The position numbers and the translations under genes are program-made. Below, one piece after another: positions 5,513-30,813 of a stretch of DNA of 64,000 bases. The stretch covers positions 1 to 64,000 of the forward strand of contig CACXMA010000005.1 in the NCBI GenBank assembly GCA_902768665.1, in the 5' to 3' direction. The DNA is from an uncultured Bacteroidia bacterium. GTDB taxonomy: Bacteria > Bacteroidota > Bacteroidia > Bacteroidales > UBA932. Below the pieces are notes generated by a model. That model saw only the letters and a program-made list of their open reading frames with translations, did not search any database and was not told the origin of the DNA. Position 1 is the first letter of the stretch, and each line of letters opens with the position of its first letter.

Positions 5513-6847
5513 ATGCGTCTCAGCAGGGAAGTACTCAGGCTGGCCGTGCCCAGCATCCTGGCGAACATCACCGTCCCGCTTGTCGGAATGGTGGATGTCG
5601 CCATCGCCGGGCATCTCAGCGCGGGCTATTCGTCGTCGGCGCTGATCGGGGGCATCTCCATCGGTACGATGCTCTTCGACCTGCTCTACTGGAACTTCGG
5701 CTTTCTCCGCACGGGGACCGGGGGACTGACGGCCCAGGCCTTCGGGCGGGGCGGGCAGGGCGTCGGGAGCATCCTCACGCGGGCGATGCGGATAGCCCTT
5801 CTCTCCGGCCTGGGGCTGATTGCCATCCAGCTGCTCGTCGTATGGCTGGCTTTCCTCCTCGTTCCCTGCTCGGCGGAGGTGCGGGAACTGGCGACCCGCT
5901 ATTTCTATATCCGTGTTTGGGCGGCGCCGGCGACCCTGTCGCTGTTTGCGCTCAAGGGCTGGTTTATCGGGATGCAGGATTCGGTGCGTCCGATGGCGGC
6001 GGACCTGATTGTGAACGGGGTGAATATCGCGGCTTCGGCGCTGCTGGCGCTCGGTCTTCCCGGGGTCTTCGACGGCATCGGTTTCCCGGGCATCGCGATC
6101 GGCACCGTCATCGCCCAGTGGACGGGCCTGGGCTATTGCATGATCGCCCTCCGGCGCCGTTATAGGGGCGTTTTCGGGCGGGATGAGCAGCCTGCGGTGG
6201 AGAGCCGCGGCTTCTTTGCGCTGAACCGGGACCTGTTCCTCCGCTCGCTCGGCATGATGGCAGTGTATATCGGTTTCACGGTCCTGAGCGCCCGTTTCGG
6301 CGACAGGGTTCTTGCGGTGAGTACGATCCTGATGAAGCTGCTGATGCTCTTCAGTTATTTCACGGACGGTTTTGCCTACGCGGCGGAGGCGCTGACCGGG
6401 CGTTTCATCGGGGAGCGGTCCCCGGACGGGCTTCGCTGTGCCATCCGCTGCAGCTTCCTCTGGAGCGGAGCGGTCGCCCTCGGGTTCCTTCTGCTCTATG
6501 GCCTCGGCGGCGGCTGGCTGTTCTCGCTGATGACTTCCTCCGCGGAAGTGGTCACGGCGGGACGGGCCTATATCCCGTGGCTGCTGCTGATGCCCGTGGT
6601 CGGCTGCGCGGCTTTCGTGTGGGACGGGGTCTTCATCGGCGCGACGGCATCCGCGCCGCTTCGGAACTCGACGCTGCTTTGCGCCGTCGGCTTTTTCGCC
6701 GTCTGGCTGGTCGGCCGGTATTCCTTCCCGTCTCCGGGGATGGCACTGCATATCCTCATGGCCGCCTATTTCGCCCATCTTCTCATCCGTGGCGTCTATC
6801 TCACGCTTCGGCAGGGCGTGGTGTACGGGGCGCTGCGGGGACGGTGA
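5513..6847 (+). CDS. MATE family efflux transporter (DinF type)
   Basis: The 444-residue integral membrane protein is of usual MATE length, with about twelve spans in two halves. The N-terminus (REVLRLAVPSILANITVPLVG-VDVAIAGHL) and the following GG-SIGTMLFDLLYW-F-FLRTGTGGLTAQAFG are characteristic of the DinF/NorM subfamily. Such proteins export cationic drugs or metabolites in exchange for Na+ or H+ across the inner membrane. It has its own weak promoter, points away from the toxin-antitoxin pair, and is as GC-rich as the core genes, unlike its neighbours on both sides. Confidence 0.88.
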   Translation: MRLSREVLRLAVPSILANITVPLVGMVDVAIAGHLSAGYSSSALIGGISIGTMLFDLLYWNFGFLRTGTGGLTAQAFGRGGQGVGSILTRAMRIALLSGLGLIAIQLLVVWLAFLLVPCSAEVRELATRYFYIRVWAAPATLSLFALKGWFIGMQDSVRPMAADLIVNGVNIAASALLALGLPGVFDGIGFPGIAIGTVIAQWTGLGYCMIALRRRYRGVFGRDEQPAVESRGFFALNRDLFLRSLGMMAVYIGFTVLSARFGDRVLAVSTILMKLLMLFSYFTDGFAYAAEALTGRFIGERSPDGLRCAIRCSFLWSGAVALGFLLLYGLGGGWLFSLMTSSAEVVTAGRAYIPWLLLMPVVGCAAFVWDGVFIGATASAPLRNSTLLCAVGFFAVWLVGRYSFPSPGMALHILMAAYFAHLLIRGVYLTLRQGVVYGALRGR

Positions 6848-6861
6848 TAGAGATGTCCATG

Positions 6862-6900
6862 CTCTTTCCTCGACGAGAGGAAGAGAGATACTCTATTTTT
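6862..6900 (+). terminator. Possible terminator after the MATE gene
   Basis: CTCTTTCCTC and GAGGAAGAG pair with one bulged base. The T-run comes about ten bases after the stem, so this is a weak candidate. Confidence 0.35.
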
Positions 6901-6935
6901 TGTTGTTACATACATGATAATCAAAGATTTTTTTG

Positions 6936-6943
6936 TAAGTTTG
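6936..6943 (+). promoter_or_regulatory. -7 box TAAGTTTG of the second microprotein module
   Basis: This is an exact TAnnTTTG match about 120 bp before the microprotein ATG at 7063. The nearest upstream TTG (6903-6905) is too far away for good spacing. The gap 6848-7062 shows nothing else. Confidence 0.45.
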
Positions 6944-7062
6944 CGGTTAAGTACATGTTTGATTATCGCAGAGCAAAACAGGAAATATAGCTTTCCTCCT
7001 CTGTAGAGCCTGTGATGAACGGAAGCAAGCAACATGGTTTTTTAACACAAAACACAATAACT

Positions 7063-7200
7063 ATGAAACAAAAAATGCTTTATGTCGCTCCGGAGACGGA
7101 GCAGACCAGACTCCAATTTGAGGAGCATTTTCTGGATGGTTCCATCACGGCATCCCGTGATAACTACACCATGGATGCAGAAGAAGATTGGGAATATTAA
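7063..7200 (+). CDS. Acidic-tailed microprotein (45 aa), module 2
   Basis: The 45-residue protein MKQKMLYVAPETEQ... has an F-E-E-H-F-L-D-G-S centre and the acidic aromatic tail E-E-D-W-E-Y. It shares its N-terminal pattern and the F-E-x-x-F-L-D motif with the protein at 2133-2285, and its gene stands in the same place, just before a lipoprotein gene (14-bp gap). I set the start at 7063 by that similarity; the frame is open to 7012 but those codons are not shared. It has no cysteine, signal peptide or membrane segment. Function unknown. Confidence 0.72.
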   Translation: MKQKMLYVAPETEQTRLQFEEHFLDGSITASRDNYTMDAEEDWEY

Positions 7201-7214
7201 TGGAGGACTGCCGT

Positions 7215-9791
7215 ATGAAAAAGACTTTATTGATCCTGGCCGCCATTGCCGGCGCAGCCTTCGTTTCCTGCCAGAAAGAGACCAATCCGGAGCCGACCGA
7301 GCCCGAACTTACCGGTAAGACTTATACGCTTACCGTGAACGCCACCAAGGCAGTTGGCACCAAAGCACTCGCCTTCGACGGCGCAAATCTGGTAACATCA
7401 TGGGCGGCAACCGATGAGGTAAAGGTGTGCAAGCACGGCTCCGCCACCGCTATCGGAACGCTTCTGCCCAAGACCACCGGCTCGGCCTCTACTTCCATCT
7501 CCGGCTCCATCACTCTCACCGATGTAAATGTGGGTGACAAACTGGACCTCATCTTCCCCGATACCAACTGGACCTACGAAGGCCAGGACGGAACGCTGGA
7601 AACGATTTCTTCCAGTTTTGACTTTGCCCGGGCTGAGGTTACCGTGAGCAACATCAGCGGCAGCGACCTCACGGCTTCCGCAGCCACCTTTACCAATGAG
7701 CAGAGCCTGGTGAAGTTTACCATCCTTGATGCGGCCACCAGTAGCCTCATGGATGTCCAGTCTCTTACAATCTCTGCTGCAAGCGGTAAGCTGGTAAAAT
7801 CCTATGCTGTTTCCGGAGATGCTTATACTCCCGTTTATGGAGACATCGTCGTCACCCCGTCTGCTGCTACCTCAGAGTTCTATGTGGCTCTCAGGAACAA
7901 CTCCGGTGCTGCTGACACCTATACCCTGACGGCTCAGCTGAATCAGTTCAAGAATTACACTTTCGTTAAGAGCGGAGTCACGTTCGCGAATGGCCATTAC
8001 AAGGCAGTCAATGTCAAGATGACCGAAGAGAATGATATCTATACGGTAGCCGCTTCTCCGGTGGAGGTGTTTGGTTCTTCATGGAATCCGGACGATGCTA
8101 ATAATGACATGGCCAAGCAGTCCGATGGAACATATCGCAAGACCTATCAGCTCAATGGAAATGAGCCGGGTCCGATTGCATTCAAGGTTGTCAAGAATCG
8201 TGACTGGACTTACGCATGGCCTTCTAGCAACTATGAAATTAATACTGTGACAAAAGGCACACTTGTCATTACGTTCGATCCTTCCAATCATGCAGTGAAC
8301 GGTTACATTGAGTCAGAAGGCACATACACAGTTGCTGGAAGTGATAGCGTATTCGGATCCAACTGGGATACTGATGATACCAACAATGATATGGTCAAGC
8401 AGGATGACGATACCTATCTGAAGACCTACACTATTTCCTCTGCTCTCGTGGGCACTACAATTGAGTTCAAGGTTGTCAAAAATCACAAATGGGGATCTGG
8501 AAGTGAGTGGCCTGCTTCTAACTATGAGTACAAGATACCTGCTGCAGGTACATTGAATATTTCATTCAATCCTGCAACGGGAACAGTCCAGGCCTGGATG
8601 TTTGAATATACCCTTGCTTGTTCTTCTAACGCTTGGAGCGTTACGGCTAATCCTATGACTAAGCAGGAAGACGGAACCTGGAAGTGTGTTGTTGAAAATA
8701 ACGTTGAAAATATAGTAGAGGAGTTCAAGGTTCTTCACAGAGAGAGCGAATGGATTGGCGATCCTAATAATAGCGGTGAAAACTACTCGAAGGACGTTCC
8801 TGTAAAATGCGACCTCATCTTCACCTATAATCCGGAAACCGGCTTGGTTAAGATGGATTTTAGAGTTGATAACACAGTAGATGATGTCCTCAGAAGGCTT
8901 TTGTTCGAAGTTGAGACTGGTACCACAATCGAAATGAAAGCTGGCACTTATGTCGAGTCCAACAGTAATTATATTGCTTTTGCCGGTAAGGAAGTTACCG
9001 TAAAGGCAGTAGAAGGAGCCACGGTTGTCCTTCAGCCTCAGGTGCCCATAACAATCTCTGGTGGAGGTCATGCAAAATTTGTTGACGTCGTATTTGATGC
9101 TTCACATTTGACAGATTTGGCAACCTGGTACGAGCACTTGATTTACGCATCAGATGCAGATGCAGATAACCGCTTGGTGCTTGAGAACTGTGAGATGAAG
9201 AACTTCAATCAAAACAAATCTGCAATCTATTGTTCATCATCCAACAAGTTTGCATCTGTCGAATTTGATAACTGCTATTTCCACGACATGATGAAGAGCG
9301 TCTTCTTCTCCGAAGGCACATCTGTTGACGCTTTCACATTGACTAATTCTACGATAGCAAATATCTCGACTGATAGCGGCAGCTATTATGCCGGCGTGAT
9401 TGATCCTCGTGGCGCCTCTGTAGCAGTAACTGTAGATCATTGCACCTTCTATAACTGCGAGACGATGAATACCGACTATGGCGCCATTAAGGTTAAGGAT
9501 TCTTCGAACGCTGTGGTGTCCAACTGTATCTTCATGATGCCCAGCTCTTATGCAGGTGGACGTGCTGTATACAACACCGCTGGTGAAGTAAAGAACTGTC
9601 TCACATTTAACTATACCAAGGACAGCACTCCTCACGGCATCCATTCCGGTCCCACTATTACGAATTGCGTTGAGGCAAATCCTCTCTTTGCAAATCCCGG
9701 TAGTGGTGATTTCACCCTCGGTACAGGATCTCCTGCCCTGACGGCTTCAGAGACCAATGGTCCTATCGGAGACCCTCGCTGGTATAACTAA
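7215..9791 (+). CDS. Multidomain surface lipoprotein: fimbrillin-like, three glycan-binding-like repeats, beta-helix
   Basis: This 858-residue lipoprotein starts MKKTLLILAAIAG...FVSC, with Cys about residue 19. Q-K-E follows the Cys, fitting surface export. Residues about 35-280 look fimbrillin-like. Then come two close repeats (F-G-S-x-W-x-x-D-D-x-N-N-D-M-x-K-Q-x-D...F-K-V-V-K-N-x-x-W) and a third, more divergent one, resembling the X25 domains of pullulanases and SusE/F. Residues about 555-858 form a parallel beta-helix of pectate-lyase-like folds (DUF4957/DUF5123 type), with short turns rich in N and C. No lyase active-site residues could be picked out. It is AT-rich like the 2303 gene and shares its microprotein partner. 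The role is probably binding, perhaps cleaving, of a polysaccharide at the cell surface. Confidence 0.72.
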   Translation: MKKTLLILAAIAGAAFVSCQKETNPEPTEPELTGKTYTLTVNATKAVGTKALAFDGANLVTSWAATDEVKVCKHGSATAIGTLLPKTTGSASTSISGSITLTDVNVGDKLDLIFPDTNWTYEGQDGTLETISSSFDFARAEVTVSNISGSDLTASAATFTNEQSLVKFTILDAATSSLMDVQSLTISAASGKLVKSYAVSGDAYTPVYGDIVVTPSAATSEFYVALRNNSGAADTYTLTAQLNQFKNYTFVKSGVTFANGHYKAVNVKMTEENDIYTVAASPVEVFGSSWNPDDANNDMAKQSDGTYRKTYQLNGNEPGPIAFKVVKNRDWTYAWPSSNYEINTVTKGTLVITFDPSNHAVNGYIESEGTYTVAGSDSVFGSNWDTDDTNNDMVKQDDDTYLKTYTISSALVGTTIEFKVVKNHKWGSGSEWPASNYEYKIPAAGTLNISFNPATGTVQAWMFEYTLACSSNAWSVTANPMTKQEDGTWKCVVENNVENIVEEFKVLHRESEWIGDPNNSGENYSKDVPVKCDLIFTYNPETGLVKMDFRVDNTVDDVLRRLLFEVETGTTIEMKAGTYVESNSNYIAFAGKEVTVKAVEGATVVLQPQVPITISGGGHAKFVDVVFDASHLTDLATWYEHLIYASDADADNRLVLENCEMKNFNQNKSAIYCSSSNKFASVEFDNCYFHDMMKSVFFSEGTSVDAFTLTNSTIANISTDSGSYYAGVIDPRGASVAVTVDHCTFYNCETMNTDYGAIKVKDSSNAVVSNCIFMMPSSYAGGRAVYNTAGEVKNCLTFNYTKDSTPHGIHSGPTITNCVEANPLFANPGSGDFTLGTGSPALTASETNGPIGDPRWYN

Positions 9792-24939: not shown

Positions 24940-25875
24940 ATGAAACCTACACTTCTCGTTCTTGCTGCCGGTATGGGCAGCCGTTATGGCGGTTTGAAAC
25001 AGATGGACGGCGTCGGCCCTTCCGGCGAGACCATCATCGATTATTCCATCCACGATGCCGTGGAGGCCGGTTTCGGCAAGGTCGTCTACATCGTCCGCGA
25101 GTATTTCAAGGCCGATATGGAGAAGGCGGTCAAGGAAAAATACGCCGGCGTCAAGACCTGTGACGGGAAGCCCCTCGAGTTCGTTTTCGTGACCCAGGAG
25201 CTGGACAAGATCCCGGCCGGTTACGACATCAACCCCGATCGGCAGAAGCCCTGGGGCACCGCCCACGCCCTGCTGATGGCCAAGGATGTCATCCACGAGC
25301 CTTTTGCCGTCATCAACGGTGACGACTTCTACGGCAAGGAGTCCTTCAAGATCCTCGGCGACTGGTGCCGCCGGCATGAGAATACCGAGGGCCAGTACTG
25401 CATCATCGGCTTCGAGCTGGAGAACACCCTCTCCGAGAACGGTTCCGTCTCCCGCGGCATCTGCTACTATGACGAGAAGGGCATCCTGACCGGCGTCGCC
25501 GAGCACCTCGACATCGCCAAGGCCGAGGACGGCAAGGTCTACGGCGACAACTCCGTCACCGGCGAAAAGCACGTCGAACTCGCTGCCAAGGCTCTCTGCT
25601 CGATGAACATGTGGGGCTTTACCCCGGACTATTTCGCCAAGAGCGAGGCCAGCTTCCATACCTTCCTCAAGGAATTCGGCATGGAACTCAAGAAAGAGTA
25701 CTACATCCCTTACGCCGTCGACGTGATCGTCAAGGGCGGCGAGGCCTGCTGCGAGGTCCTCTCGACCCCGAGCAAGTGGTTCGGCGTGACCTATAAGGAA
25801 GACCGTCCGGGCGTCGTCGCGAAGTTCCAGGAACTCGCCGACAAGGGCGTCTACCCGACTCCTCTCTACAAGTAA
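24940..25875 (+). CDS. Sugar-phosphate nucleotidyltransferase
   Basis: The 311-residue protein begins P-T-L-L-V-L-A-A-G-M-G-S-R-Y-G-G-L-K, the G-x-G-x-R-x3-K nucleotide-binding signature, with G-T-A-H-A-L and N-G-D-D-F-Y-G for base and metal binding. It should transfer an NMP to a sugar 1-phosphate or similar compound in the cytoplasm. The substrate is not fixed by what I see; length and sequence fit a Bacteroidota family often placed beside an aminoglycoside-type kinase, which is absent here. I chose the ATG at 24940 because the frame before it crosses the promoter. Confidence 0.82.
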   Translation: MKPTLLVLAAGMGSRYGGLKQMDGVGPSGETIIDYSIHDAVEAGFGKVVYIVREYFKADMEKAVKEKYAGVKTCDGKPLEFVFVTQELDKIPAGYDINPDRQKPWGTAHALLMAKDVIHEPFAVINGDDFYGKESFKILGDWCRRHENTEGQYCIIGFELENTLSENGSVSRGICYYDEKGILTGVAEHLDIAKAEDGKVYGDNSVTGEKHVELAAKALCSMNMWGFTPDYFAKSEASFHTFLKEFGMELKKEYYIPYAVDVIVKGGEACCEVLSTPSKWFGVTYKEDRPGVVAKFQELADKGVYPTPLYK

Positions 25876-26780
25876 TGGCCCGCGACAGCAGAAAGCGCCC
25901 GCGCAGTTACGACATCTTCGGCCTCTTCCCCTTTTACCTTCCGGGTCTTGGGGGAAGTTGGCTGATGGTAGCCGTTTTCCTCGTCCTGCAGATTCTGGTC
26001 GGGATGATTTTCGGCATTCCCCTGGGCCTCGGTGTCCTGGGGATGGATTCCTATTTCCTCCTGACCTATGTCACGACCTTCGCCATCCTGCTGATGATCT
26101 GCTCGAACATCAGCCGTACGCGCGCCTTCACGGCCGAGTCGGGGCTGGCGGTGACGAGCCGGCATTTCGGCGGGCTCCATCCGCTGCTGATCGGTCTGCT
26201 GGCCGTGCTGGGCATGCTGGGGACCGTCGTGGCCGTCGATCCGGTTACGGCGCTGGTGCAGCGCATCTCGCCCGATGCCGGTGCCCTGGAGGACACCATG
26301 GCGAATCTCATGAGCGGCAACGGCGTGCTGATTTTCCTGAGTGTGGCGGTCTTCGCCCCGTTTTTCGAGGAACTCTTTGTCCGCGGCATCCTGCTGCGGG
26401 GCATGCTGACAAAGCTGCGCCCCGGCTGGGCGATCTTCTGGTCCGCCCTGATGTTCGCCGTCATGCACGCCAACATCGTCCAGGGCTTCTCCGCCCTGGT
26501 TCTGGGCCTGCTGCTCGGCTACACCTATTACCGGACCGGCTGTCTCTGGCTGACGATGCTGATGCACTTCGCCAACAACGCCCTGAGCTTCGCGCTGATG
26601 AAGATTCCTTCGGTCGAGGCGGAAGAGAGCATGGTCGGGCTGATGCCCGTGTGGGGCTATGTCCTTCTCATCCTTGCCGGCCTGGCCCTGGCGGGGCTTT
26701 TCCTCTGGGCGCTCGGCCGCATCCCGCTGCAGGATCGCCGCGGGAACATGGACACGGTCACGCTGGACGATCTCGTCTGA
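25875..26780 (+). CDS. CPBP family intramembrane metalloprotease
   Basis: The 301-residue membrane protein with about eight spans carries the CPBP motifs: F-F-E-E-L-F-V-R-G (EExxxR), the F-A-V-M-H-A-N segment and the H-F-A-N-N-A-L segment with its His and Asn. Members are related to Rce1/Abi peptidases and may process bacteriocins, lipoproteins or prenylated peptides. The ATG shares one base with the preceding stop codon (TAATG), so it is coupled to the nucleotidyltransferase. Confidence 0.85.
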   Translation: MARDSRKRPRSYDIFGLFPFYLPGLGGSWLMVAVFLVLQILVGMIFGIPLGLGVLGMDSYFLLTYVTTFAILLMICSNISRTRAFTAESGLAVTSRHFGGLHPLLIGLLAVLGMLGTVVAVDPVTALVQRISPDAGALEDTMANLMSGNGVLIFLSVAVFAPFFEELFVRGILLRGMLTKLRPGWAIFWSALMFAVMHANIVQGFSALVLGLLLGYTYYRTGCLWLTMLMHFANNALSFALMKIPSVEAEESMVGLMPVWGYVLLILAGLALAGLFLWALGRIPLQDRRGNMDTVTLDDLV

Positions 26781-26805: not shown

Positions 26806-29757
26806 ATGACAAACAAAAAACTGAATGTGAAGTATGCCATCCTGCTGCCGATCGTGCTGATCGTCACGGTGCTGCTTCTCGCACTCCCGACGACCGCCTT
26901 CGGCATAGACGGCCTCAATGTCATCCAGCAGCGGGTGATCGCCCTCTTTGTGTTCGCGGCGCTGATGTGGATGTTCGAAATCATTCCGAACTGGACGACC
27001 TCCCTGCTGGTGATCGTCATATCGCTTCTTACTGTTTCCAACAAGGGTATCGGCGCCCTCTGCGACCCGAAGCTCGGTCAGCTGGTCAACTTCAAGGACC
27101 TCATGGCCTCCTTCGCGGACCCGGTCGTCATGCTCTTCCTCGGCGGCTTCGTGCTCGCCATCATGGCCGAGAAATACGGCCTGGACGTGACCCTGGCCCG
27201 GGTGCTGCTCAAGCCTTTCGGCACAAAGCCCAGAATGGTGCTCCTCGGGTTCCTCATCGTTATCGCCATCTTCTCGATGTTCATGTCGAACACCGCTACG
27301 GCGGCGATGATGCTGGCCTTCCTGGCCCCGGTGCTCGCCGTCCTGCCCAAGGATGACAAGGGCAAGATCGGACTGGCGCTGGCCATACCGGTCGCCGCCA
27401 ACCTCGGCGGCATCGGCACCCCGATCGGCACCCCGCCGAACGCCACCGCCGTCAAGTTCCTCGGTGAGGCCGGCTATGAGGTCTCCTTCATGGACTGGAG
27501 CGTCAAGATGATTCCGTACGTGATCATCATGCTCCTGGTTGCCTGGGTGCTCCTCCAGATCTTCTTCCCCTTCAAGTCGAAGGAGGTCAAGCTGGAAATC
27601 CCTGAGAACAAGCGCAAGGCAGACTGGAAGACCTATGTGGTCTGGATTGTCTTTATCGGTACGATCCTCCTCTGGGCGACCGAACAGTGGACCAAGATCA
27701 ACTCCAACGTCGTGGCCCTGATTCCGCTCGGCGTGTTCTGCGCCCTCGGCATCTTCGGCAAGGAAGACATCAAGGAAATCAACTGGAGCGTCCTCTGGCT
27801 CGTCGCGGGAGGTTTCGCCCTCGGTACCTGCCTCCAGGGAACCGGCCTGGCCAAGGCCCTCATCGAGTCGATTCCGTTCGGCTCCATGTCCGTGGTCCTC
27901 GTCCTGGTGATCGCCGGCTTCGTCTGCTACTTCCTGTCGAACTTTATCTCCAACTCCGCTACGGCGGCCCTCCTGATCCCGATCCTGATCGTCGTCGCCG
28001 AGGGTATGGCCGACCCGGCTGCCGCCTCCAACGCGGATTTCGTGAGCCTCGGCGGCACGCACGCGATGATCGTTTTCATCGCCACCTGCGCCTCCATCGC
28101 CATGCTCTTCCCGATCTCGACCCCGCCGAACGCCATCGCCGCGTCCACGGGCCTTGTCGAGACCAAGGATATGACCAAGATCGGCATCATCATCGGTGCC
28201 GTCGGCTTCTTCCTCGGCTACTTCTGGCTGACCAGCTGGTTCCCGTTCAAGCAGGAAGCGCCGATCCGCAGCCATGCCGACCAGTACGCCTATGTCGAGC
28301 TGAAGACCCCGTCCAGCTGGACGACCCTTTCCCCGAACGGCAAGCGGGTCCTCGAGCTCTACAAGAAGGCCGCCGACCAGATCGATGAAATCTACTGGCA
28401 GCAGACCGGTGGTGCAGCCGTCCTCTCTGACACCACTCTCACTGCCGACCTCCGGTCCTATGCCGCCATCAATTACGGTCCTTGGGACCGCCTGACCGGT
28501 GAAACCTTCCTCGAAGGCTATCCCGAGCGCCCGCTGGGTGCCGGCTTCTATCCTGCCGACGTCACCCTTGACGAGCTCACGCCCGAGCAGACCGGCCACT
28601 ATACTGTCGTGACCCGCGACGCCTCCGGCGCCCTCGTTACGATGCCGTACACCGTGGCCTACAAACCGCAGCTCGACAGCATCGCCAATCTCCTGTCCGA
28701 GGCGGCCAATACGACCATTGTTCCTTCCGTCGCGGACTACCTCCGCGAGGTTGTCAGCGCCCTGCACAGCGGAGACTTCACCGCTGCCAACGAGGCCTGG
28801 TTCGCCACCTCCGACAGCCGCATGGATCTTGTGATCGGTCCGGTCACGACGGCCGACGACCATCTCACCGGCTCGAAGGCCTCCTACGGCGCCATGGTCC
28901 TTCTCAAGGATATGAACAAGACCGCCGACCTCCAGGCCCTCAACGCCAAGCTGCCCGAATTCCAGGCCTCCCTGCCCGTTGAGGACATCTACAAGACCTG
29001 GACGCCGACCGCTTCCGACATCATCTCCGCCGACGCCCTCGAGTATGCCGGCGCCCTGAATGCCGGTTACAAGGTCATCGCCCTGAACCTCCCGTTCGGC
29101 GAGTCTTCCGAGACCCGCACGATCCTCGTCCAGAACGTGCTGAACAGCAAGTATCTGCAGATCGTCTATCCGGCCGGCCAGCTCGTCATCGAGAAGGACC
29201 AGCGCGGCGAGCTCGACTACGACGCCTTCTACTGGAACACCGCCTTCCGTGAGATCGCCCACGGTCTGGGCGTCAAGCAGACGCTCGACGGAAAGGATGT
29301 CGAAGAGGCTCTCGGCAATGTCGCCCTCACGATCGAGAAGGTCAAGGACAACGTCGTCGGCCAGTATCTGGTCAGCGCCTCGCTCGAGAACCACAGCCTC
29401 GGCGGCCTCGTCCAGGAAAAGAACGCCGCGGTGACCTTTGTCGCCAGCACGATCCGCTCGACCCGCTTCGGCACGGCTGACGCAACGGGTCTCGCCAACG
29501 TTATCATCTACAATTATCTCCTTGAGAAAGAGGCGATTGCCGTCAATCCGAAGCACGAGTACAGTGTCGACTTCGGGAAGTATGCGACGGCCGTCAAGGA
29601 TCTCGCCACGCTCGTGCTGGACCTCCAGGCCAAGGGCGACGCCGCCGCTGCGGAAGCCTTCGTCGCGGCCTACAGCGAAATGGGTGAGGACCTCAACGGT
29701 GCCATCTCCACCCTCAAGCTCAAGAAGATTCCTGTGGACATCCGCTTTACGAAATAA
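26806..29757 (+). CDS. SLC13/DASS transporter fused to an M49-like (DPP III) pseudopeptidase domain
   Basis: This 983-residue protein has two parts. Residues 1-480 form a divalent-anion:Na+ symporter of the DASS family with both S-N-x-A-T motifs (M-S-N-T-A-T-A-A-M-M near 160; I-S-N-S-A-T-A-A-L-L later) and G-T-P-I-G-T-P-P-N. Residues about 485-983 match bacterial M49 dipeptidyl-peptidase III relatives: D-E-I-Y-W-Q-Q, N-Y-G-P-W-D-R-L, P-L-G-A-G-F-Y-P-A-D, a late R-S-T-R-F-G and the ending I-P-V-D-I-R-F. The zinc site is damaged. H-E-x-x-H is R-E-I-A-H (residues 815-819), and the third ligand in E-E-x-x-A-D is Lys 845 in E-K-V-K-D-N. The domain is therefore probably a binding or sensing module on a carboxylate transporter. 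The frame is open throughout. Confidence 0.8.
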   Translation: MTNKKLNVKYAILLPIVLIVTVLLLALPTTAFGIDGLNVIQQRVIALFVFAALMWMFEIIPNWTTSLLVIVISLLTVSNKGIGALCDPKLGQLVNFKDLMASFADPVVMLFLGGFVLAIMAEKYGLDVTLARVLLKPFGTKPRMVLLGFLIVIAIFSMFMSNTATAAMMLAFLAPVLAVLPKDDKGKIGLALAIPVAANLGGIGTPIGTPPNATAVKFLGEAGYEVSFMDWSVKMIPYVIIMLLVAWVLLQIFFPFKSKEVKLEIPENKRKADWKTYVVWIVFIGTILLWATEQWTKINSNVVALIPLGVFCALGIFGKEDIKEINWSVLWLVAGGFALGTCLQGTGLAKALIESIPFGSMSVVLVLVIAGFVCYFLSNFISNSATAALLIPILIVVAEGMADPAAASNADFVSLGGTHAMIVFIATCASIAMLFPISTPPNAIAASTGLVETKDMTKIGIIIGAVGFFLGYFWLTSWFPFKQEAPIRSHADQYAYVELKTPSSWTTLSPNGKRVLELYKKAADQIDEIYWQQTGGAAVLSDTTLTADLRSYAAINYGPWDRLTGETFLEGYPERPLGAGFYPADVTLDELTPEQTGHYTVVTRDASGALVTMPYTVAYKPQLDSIANLLSEAANTTIVPSVADYLREVVSALHSGDFTAANEAWFATSDSRMDLVIGPVTTADDHLTGSKASYGAMVLLKDMNKTADLQALNAKLPEFQASLPVEDIYKTWTPTASDIISADALEYAGALNAGYKVIALNLPFGESSETRTILVQNVLNSKYLQIVYPAGQLVIEKDQRGELDYDAFYWNTAFREIAHGLGVKQTLDGKDVEEALGNVALTIEKVKDNVVGQYLVSASLENHSLGGLVQEKNAAVTFVASTIRSTRFGTADATGLANVIIYNYLLEKEAIAVNPKHEYSVDFGKYATAVKDLATLVLDLQAKGDAAAAEAFVAAYSEMGEDLNGAISTLKLKKIPVDIRFTK

Positions 29758-29772
29758 TCATTGCAACCGAAT

Positions 29773-30813
29773 ATGAAAAGATTCTTTACAACGCTGGCGA
29801 CGCTGGCCCTGATCGGGGCCGGCTTCGCCGCTTCCGCCCAGGAAAGCGAGACGCCCGAATACGGTTACAAGCAGACCGGATTCATGAGCACGCCCAAGGT
29901 GGGAGGCTACATCATCGGCTCCTACAAGTACAGCGACCTTGAGGGCGCCCACGGCGGCCCCGGTTTCAACTGCCGGCTCATCCGTCTGTATGTCGACGGC
30001 AGCATCTTCAATGACTTCAAGTACCGCATCCAGCTCCAGATGAACGGGCAGAATCCGCACGTCAAGGACTTCTACATCGAGTGGGCCAAGTACAAGGAGT
30101 TCTCCGTCAAGGTCGGTCAGTTCAAGCGCGCCTTTACCTTCGAGAATCCCATGAATCCCTGGGATGTGGGTGTGGGTGACTTCTCCATCCTCGTCCAGAA
30201 ATTCGCCGGTATGGGCGACCGTCTCGGCGAAGCCAACATGGGCGGCCGTGACCAGGGCATCCAGGTCCAGGGCGACCTCTTCCCCATCGGGGAGCAGCAG
30301 TATCGCCTGATCCACTATCAGCTCGGCCTCTACAACGGCCAGGGCATCAACCTCGCCGATGCCAACGGACACAAGGATATCATCGGAACCCTCCAGATCC
30401 AGCCCCTCCAGGGCCTGTATCTGGGTGCATTCGCTTGGAAGGGCGATTGGGTGAACGGCGCCGGTGAGACCCTCAAGCGCCAGCGCATCAGCGCCGGTAT
30501 GAAGTACGACAAGGACAACTGGACGGTCCGTGCGGAGTATGCCACCAATATCCGTGGTGAAAGGTCCCAGAGCGGCGCCGCCGATGCTTTCTATGCGACG
30601 GTCGGCGTCCCTGTGATGGACTGGCTGAAGATTTACGCCAAGTGGGATGAGCTGCGCGACAACGACGTCCGCCACGACATGTACTCCGCCTGCGCGAACT
30701 TCCGCCTCCACAAGAACCTCAACTTCCAGCTTGAGTACCGCTATCACAACAATAAGTTCCTCGCCTCTCCGAAGTACAACGAGATCTGGGCGATGGCTTA
30801 CATCCGCTTCTAA
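29773..30813 (+). CDS. Porin of the OprO/OprP family
   Basis: This 346-residue outer-membrane protein has a cleavable signal (MKRFFTTLATLALIGAGFAASAQ) and an alternating strand pattern ending in Phe (A-M-A-Y-I-R-F). The segment D-G-S-I-F-N-D-F-K-Y-R-I-Q-L-Q-M with F-Y-I-E-W and V-G-Q-F-K-R-A-F is typical for phosphate-selective porins O/P. The gene lies 15 bp after the SLC13 fusion and likely shares its mRNA, which would give an outer- and inner-membrane pair for anion uptake. I chose the ATG at 29773 because it starts the signal peptide. Confidence 0.82.
   Translation: MKRFFTTLATLALIGAGFAASAQESETPEYGYKQTGFMSTPKVGGYIIGSYKYSDLEGAHGGPGFNCRLIRLYVDGSIFNDFKYRIQLQMNGQNPHVKDFYIEWAKYKEFSVKVGQFKRAFTFENPMNPWDVGVGDFSILVQKFAGMGDRLGEANMGGRDQGIQVQGDLFPIGEQQYRLIHYQLGLYNGQGINLADANGHKDIIGTLQIQPLQGLYLGAFAWKGDWVNGAGETLKRQRISAGMKYDKDNWTVRAEYATNIRGERSQSGAADAFYATVGVPVMDWLKIYAKWDELRDNDVRHDMYSACANFRLHKNLNFQLEYRYHNNKFLASPKYNEIWAMAYIRF

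Follow-up and report, generated by a model that had tools for sequence, protein, structure and literature searches.

The window analysed here, a stretch of 64,000 nucleotides from contig CACXMA010000005.1 of an uncultured Bacteroidia bacterium (assembly GCA_902768665.1), contains a single open reading frame (ORF) in which a carrier of the DASS/SLC13 family is followed by a domain of the M49 peptidases (dipeptidyl-peptidase III, DPP III) that has lost its zinc site. Table 1 lists the features of this fusion and of its immediate surroundings. The first half of the protein is a DASS member by family model, motifs, and fold. Its residues 37–475 match TIGR00785 (DASS) with 248.1 bits, above the NCBIfam cut-off of 198.6, the same half has matches to PF03600 and PF00939 in Pfam, and both copies of the motif lie where the original prediction, made without database searches, had placed them. 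The second copy is a one-residue variant, SNS instead of SNT; the carboxylate-binding role of the SNT motifs in DASS is described in PMC7553777. The carrier is predicted to be of the dicarboxylate type and sodium-coupled.

The second half resembles DPP III proteins that carry the pentapeptide zinc motif. One sequence search matched residues 492–980 to the Caldithrix protein CaDPP III (6eom; E = 5.7e-60) and residues 494–980 to CoDPP III (5zum; E = 1.1e-50), and another gave E values of 2.2e-60 and 4e-51 for the same two proteins. The Pfam M49 model gives values just below its gathering score of 21 (20.2 when the second half is scored alone, 18 when the full-length protein is). The AlphaFold2 model of the fusion, built on an alignment of 103 rows, has a mean predicted local distance difference test score (pLDDT) of 84.3 and a predicted template modelling score (pTM) of 0.56. 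In Foldseek, the M49 part of this model superposes on 6eom with a template modelling (TM) score of 0.88 of the target and a root-mean-square deviation (rmsd) of 2.2, which bears out the fold that had been proposed for it, and the carrier part matches VcINDY (5ul7) with a TM score of 0.78 of the target. Identity of the M49 part to 6eom and 5zum in the structural alignments is 28–30%. The 50 Foldseek matches listed are all of DPP III or SLC13 fold, and no solute-binding-protein fold is among them. Rows of the alignment that contain M49 only have some 66–80 N-terminal residues placed in carrier columns, and the model is not trustworthy at residues ~490–560 or for the mutual placement of the two parts. 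A single-sequence fold of the M49 part reached a pLDDT of 38.6 and was unusable.

Table 1. The fusion gene, its parts, and the porin gene that follows it (positions in the window)
Feature	Position	Strand	Basis or remark
Fusion ORF, 983 codons, single open frame	26806-29757	+	Carrier residues 1-482 and M49 ~494-983
DASS/SLC13 carrier part, residues 1-482	26806..28251	+	TIGR00785, PF03600, PF00939, VcINDY-like model
First carboxylate-binding motif SNTATA, residue 161 (SNT 161-163)	27286..27303	+	Sequence motif
Second carboxylate-binding motif SNSATA, residue 382 (SNS 382-384)	27949..27966	+	Sequence motif
Linker, ~residues 483-493, in place of the signal sequence of separate relatives	28252..28284	+	Junction comparison of 10 fused proteins; pLDDT <50 at 483-488
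Zinc-dead M49 (DPP III) domain, ~residues 494-983, plus stop	28285..29757	+	6eom sequence and Foldseek matches
Former HExxH zinc motif, now R815-E-I-A-H819	29248..29262	+	Alignment
Former EExKAD motif, now E844-K-V-K-D-N849, zinc-ligand Glu replaced by K845	29335..29352	+	Alignment
T894, at the position of the oxyanion-stabilising His (hDPP III His568)	29485..29487	+	Alignment
Outer-membrane porin gene, 3 bp 3' of the fusion, start perhaps 29773	29761..30813	+	PF13609

Recurrence of the fusion

The same domain order is found in other genomes of the genus. Four hundred genomes were drawn evenly from it, and the two best candidates in each were scored. The fusion is present in at least 10 of the 400, i.e., the window, eight full-length cases, and one truncated where its contig stops, at 61–68% identity. 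At the join of the 10 fused proteins, the carrier runs to its natural end (FPF) and is followed by a linker of variable length and then by M49 in its mature form, and none of the 10 joins retains the signal sequence that the separate relatives have. The original prediction had allowed for an error of assembly or sequencing that joined two genes, and the window does come from an incomplete draft (26 contigs, completeness 88). This explanation is refuted by the recurrence in at least nine other genomes and by joins at natural ends lacking any remnant of a signal peptide, and it can practically be dismissed. Within the window's own genome, at this completeness, a search with the whole fusion protein gave no match besides the fusion itself. 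Two further long frames of the survey, of 1039 and 1072 codons (in genomes G016 and G003), were rejected as fusions, because the ORF listing resolves them into separate genes.

Purifying selection acts on the dead domain. In 11 pairs of fused proteins with more than 75% identity in M49, the ratio of nonsynonymous to synonymous substitution rates (dN/dS) is 0.07–0.16 for the M49 part and 0.02–0.09 for the carrier part. On a quick tree the fused proteins occupy two separate positions; a tree that keeps them together is better by 27 log units, and a single origin of the ten fusions is not rejected (approximately unbiased test, p = 0.787).

A group of M49 proteins without the zinc site

Residues were compared among 117 distinct M49 proteins (17 intact, 100 dead), and the tree and the table of neighbours cover 128 (27 intact, 101 dead); frames matching over 400 residues or fewer had been removed before the residue comparison and the neighbour table. 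The numbering is that of CaDPP III, after PMC5805324, the roles of residues, including the oxyanion His568 of human DPP III (hDPP III), are taken from PMC4824452, and the pocket was mapped through published residue numbers and alignment, not through geometry. In the window protein, H379 is replaced by R815 and E412 by K845, just as the loss of zinc ligands had been predicted. T894 stands at what we take, from the alignment and the human sequence, to be the position of hHis568. The protein keeps the DPP III fold of an active peptidase, and lacks both zinc motifs and the oxyanion His.

The zinc site is lost across one whole M49 group. On a quick tree of the 128 proteins, a single branch separates the 101 dead from the 27 intact ones (SH-like approximate likelihood ratio test, SH-aLRT, 100). 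The first zinc ligand, His379, is Arg in 100/100 dead proteins and His in 17/17 intact ones. The second ligand, H383, is more variable among the 100 dead proteins (His in 66, Lys in 30, Gln in 4), as is the Glu that forms the third (Glu 54, Lys 41, Asp 3, Arg 1, Thr 1). The position of the oxyanion His is occupied by Leu in 51 and by Thr in 44, the rest having other residues and none of the 100 a His. The general base Glu380 and also Glu411 are retained in all 100, and R815, E816, E844, and K847 (window numbering) are conserved in all of them.

Several of the peptide-holding residues of DPP III are missing from the dead proteins as well: Y242 and D310 are lost in 100/100, N324 in 99/100, and E254 in 57/100. 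Of the two that hold its amino end, the window protein retains N321 and has Thr for E240. The mean side-chain charge over 13 functional sites is −6.9 in the 27 intact proteins, or about −4.9 when Zn2+ is counted, and becomes −1.9 in the fused proteins (10), −0.03 in the dead type labelled REK (30), −1 in REQ (2), and −3.1 in REH (59). The charge of the whole domain undergoes no matching change (−16.5 to −19.7 over all M49 types).

Carrier genes beside zinc-dead M49 genes

Among the 101 distinct zinc-dead M49 proteins, 10 are fusions and the others are separate. Most dead domains are free-standing proteins encoded next to a carrier, and they pair with the AspT family as well, neither of which was visible to the original prediction. 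The relatives in named genomes belong to drafts of uncultured Bacteroidales or Bacteroidia, many of them, to judge by their titles, from the rumen and other ruminant gut. An M49-anchored scan of these genomes gave, as its best 80 loci, 67 separate dead genes, 7 intact, and 6 fused, with both flanks longer than 1.7 kb in 51, 6, and 5 of them, respectively. A carrier gene lies on the same strand within 250 bp of the separate dead M49 gene in 45 of these 51 loci (30 DASS, 15 AspT-family), and by the same criterion beside none of the six intact ones. A DASS or AspT gene was likewise absent (0/20) from the stretches fetched around 20 further intact M49 genes that come from other genera in the order. 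In the wider neighbour table, which includes loci fetched via carrier hits and so favours adjacency, the 91 separate dead genes have a same-strand DASS gene in 55 cases, AspT in 20, a carrier in another orientation in 3, and none in 13, whereas 0/27 intact genes have a carrier neighbour (11 of these with both flanks longer than 1.7 kb). For six dead genes (L041, L086, L046, L148, L135, and L095), no DASS or AspT neighbour is in view. The gaps between same-strand M49 and DASS genes are short (n = 54), 46 being of 3–45 bp and 8 being overlaps. By a simple pattern, 76 of 90 separate dead M49 proteins have a lipoprotein-like start.

Two M49 genes may flank a single carrier. Among the 34 genes of the set labelled DASS2 whose flanks reach at least 1.4 kb, 6 have an M49 gene on each side. 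In the M49-DASS2-M49 triples at L032:6338-11079, L035:6576-11328 (on the contig of L131), L091, L103, L118, and L151, one M49 protein is of the REK and the other of the REH type. At L032:7942-7948, the DASS2 gene and the next M49 gene are in frame and parted by a stop and one codon, which comes near to a natural fusion; at L033, the gap is 9 bp. The AspT-family carriers, presumably an aspartate-type family, are a second carrier family beside dead M49 (L142:4078-5904 and 5932-7527; L087, L092, L105, L139, and others), the query gene matching Asp-Al_Ex with 274.1 bits. Dead M49 and AspT also occur together at L188, in a genome (G627) of another family of the order. Of the 128 distinct M49 genes, 19 have a gene for a LysR-type regulator no more than 2 kb away (9 with DASS2, 3 with DASS1, 5 with AspT, 2 with no carrier; L126:1692-2669 and related ORFs), the one scanned matching PF03466. 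The genes that come after three intact M49 genes of other genera (L026:3027-4496, L028, and L030) all belong to one cluster; the one scanned, at L026, is an S46 peptidase, which makes for a setting of peptide breakdown that the dead M49 loci do not share. An intact M49 is also carried by Candidatus Cryptobacteroides merdigallinarum (L154).

The link to the adjacent porin drawn by the original prediction holds beyond the window, as a porin gene starts within 10 bp 3' of the fused gene, on the same strand, in 7 of 10 cases. In the window the two genes probably form one operon. Five of the 10 fused genes have a glutamate dehydrogenase gene upstream on the same strand, and both flanking genes are found at L080, L152, L204, L205, and L207; together they hint at 2-oxoglutarate or glutamate as the substrate. 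Directly upstream of the window's fusion gene, on the same strand, is a gene for an Rce1-like CPBP intramembrane protease (window positions 25875-26780, Pfam scan).

Possible roles of the dead domain

Linkage and fusion in related gut bacteria suggest that an enzyme has been converted into a component with which a transporter catches its substrate. The domain make-up, the group-wide zinc loss, the gene linkage, the recurrent fusion, and the purifying selection form the observed basis of the interpretation that we tentatively prefer, to which we give slightly less than an even chance: a DASS carrier whose periplasm-facing DPP III fold has become a ligand-binding domain that hands substrate to the carrier. 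DPP III consists of two domains with a cleft between them (PMC9820243), and a zinc-less DPP III is hence shaped like a binding protein. The C-terminus of VcINDY is described as lying on the extracellular surface (PMC7553777), so that, considering also the lipoprotein-like starts of the separate proteins, the fused M49 domain would be periplasmic. The substrate, probably a small anion, would enter the periplasm via the neighbouring porin, be captured in the cleft that separates the two lobes, and be passed on to the carrier, with the fused domain hanging on the last helix, which belongs to the moving transport portion. Replacement of zinc ligands by Arg and Lys would make an anion site out of a metal site. 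A broader claim, to which we would give somewhat less credence, is that of a new class in which a zinc-stripped metallopeptidase fold serves as periplasmic binding subunit of DASS and AspT carriers, whether separate, paired around one carrier, or fused to it.

Several observations weigh against this binding-and-delivery role. At the loci found through carrier hits, 9 of 35 close DASS genes (DASS1) have an M49 gene within 300 bp and 26 have none; when M49-anchored loci are mixed in, those without are 29 of 55, and it is the carrier-anchored count that is the worse for a dedicated subunit. The M49 partner is thus optional for many DASS genes, which speaks against a strictly needed subunit. Seen from M49, 6 of the 51 dead genes have no carrier gene on their own strand within 250 bp; one of these (L110) has AspT on the opposite strand, another (L126) a DASS gene 1,658 bp off, one gene away, and four have none in view. 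The retention of N321 in 100/100 dead proteins and of E240 in 93/100 would be compatible with peptide binding. The shift of charge at the functional sites is small in the REH type, and the pTM of the model, 0.56, is too low to fix the placement of the carrier and M49 parts relative to each other. Finally, the M49 part of the window protein is the most diverged of the fused set (end branch 0.89; dN/dS of 0.26–0.62 against the others). This copy has therefore changed faster than its kin, and constraint on it could be relaxed in this species.

The optional partnership would be compatible with a regulator, i.e., with a dead DPP III that senses a periplasmic ligand and opens, closes, or stabilises the carrier without delivering substrate. 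The tail is, moreover, joined to the last helix, which is part of the transport domain in LaINDY and VcINDY (PMC7553777). A separate partner shared by two carrier families fits a binding protein better than a gate, and so do two M49 genes flanking one DASS gene (6/34 DASS2), which makes a regulatory domain rather unlikely. The original prediction had proposed a peptide- or metabolite-sensing gate or an anchor for substrate. The anchor comes near to the binding role favoured here, and the peptide-sensing gate is weakened by the loss of Y242, D310, and the hHis568 equivalent in all dead proteins and of N324 in 99/100, yet N321 and E240 are kept in the numbers just given. The same residues divide on the idea that acidic di- or tripeptides are docked uncleaved, for uptake or for other peptidases: the two retained ones would allow it, as would the one-cluster genes after intact DPP III at L026 (with its S46 peptidase), L028, and L030, whereas the missing ones, among them E254 in 57/100, and partner carriers of dicarboxylate-type and aspartate-type families make such docking improbable.

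A structural role, in which a domain that binds no ligand anchors the carrier to the porin or envelope or helps in assembly, would account for the porin gene that closely follows most fused genes. A porin gene is, however, also next after 23 of the 29 DASS1 genes that lack an M49 neighbour, and a mere spacer would not need an altered active site conserved at R815, E816, E844, and K847 in every dead protein; we regard this role as less probable still. A hydrolase with a new metal site or none would explain the complete retention of Glu380 and Glu411, with H383 kept in 66/100 and the third-ligand Glu in 54/100. Such an enzyme is very hard to reconcile with Arg for the first His in all 100, Lys or Gln for the second in 34, Lys for the third in 41, and an oxyanion His that is lost throughout, and hydrolysis is accordingly very improbable.

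DASS carriers are not known to need a binding protein, and members of the family otherwise work alone. The first 482 residues share the family model, motifs, and fold of VcINDY, LaINDY, and NaCT (DASS/SLC13), and differ from these in being followed by a large M49 tail, for which we found no described member in the open-licence literature searched, in agreement with the original prediction that no family of this layout had been described. In the same open-licence papers, searches for an SLC13-M49 fusion, an inactive DPP III homologue or M49 pseudopeptidase, a pseudoenzyme as binding protein of a transporter, and a periplasmic accessory of VcINDY found none. The likeness to CaDPP III and CoDPP III is that of fold and of 28–30% identity, and the differences lie in the zinc ligands, the oxyanion His, and several residues that bind the peptide, all of them changed, as well as in the link to a carrier. 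Binding-protein-dependent transporters are marked by co-encoding or fusion, and here this is seen from the M49 side (45/51; at least 10/400 fused), and from the carrier side for 9/35 DASS1 genes.

The closest parallels are found among secondary carriers with binding proteins. According to the authors of PMC12344293, reliance on a soluble binding protein had, until TAXI-GltS, been known for TRAP and TT transporters only, and the discovery of more such classes would be a test of whether it is the elevator mechanism that makes this reliance possible. In TRAP transporters, an elevator carrier that resembles DASS in build is fed by a periplasmic binding protein (PMC12344293), which is of another fold than DPP III. 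In TAXI-GltS of Bordetella pertussis (BP0403-GltS), a lipoprotein with measured binding of L-glutamate is translationally coupled to a carrier modelled as an elevator, and single-protein fusions occur in some Lachnospiraceae; in this system, too, coupling to the carrier awaits experiment (PMC12344293). If the role favoured here is true, these carriers would be a further binding-protein-dependent class, built on the DASS family and with an independently evolved binding fold, and the M49 domain an example of an enzyme that became a receptor through metal loss. The two systems share a lipoprotein (here a putative one) that is encoded tightly with a secondary carrier and is fused to it in some bacteria. 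They differ in the carrier, which is GltS there and DASS or AspT-type here, and in the binding part, which there is an N-terminal TAXI solute-binding protein and here a C-terminal, putatively binding, zinc-dead DPP III fold.

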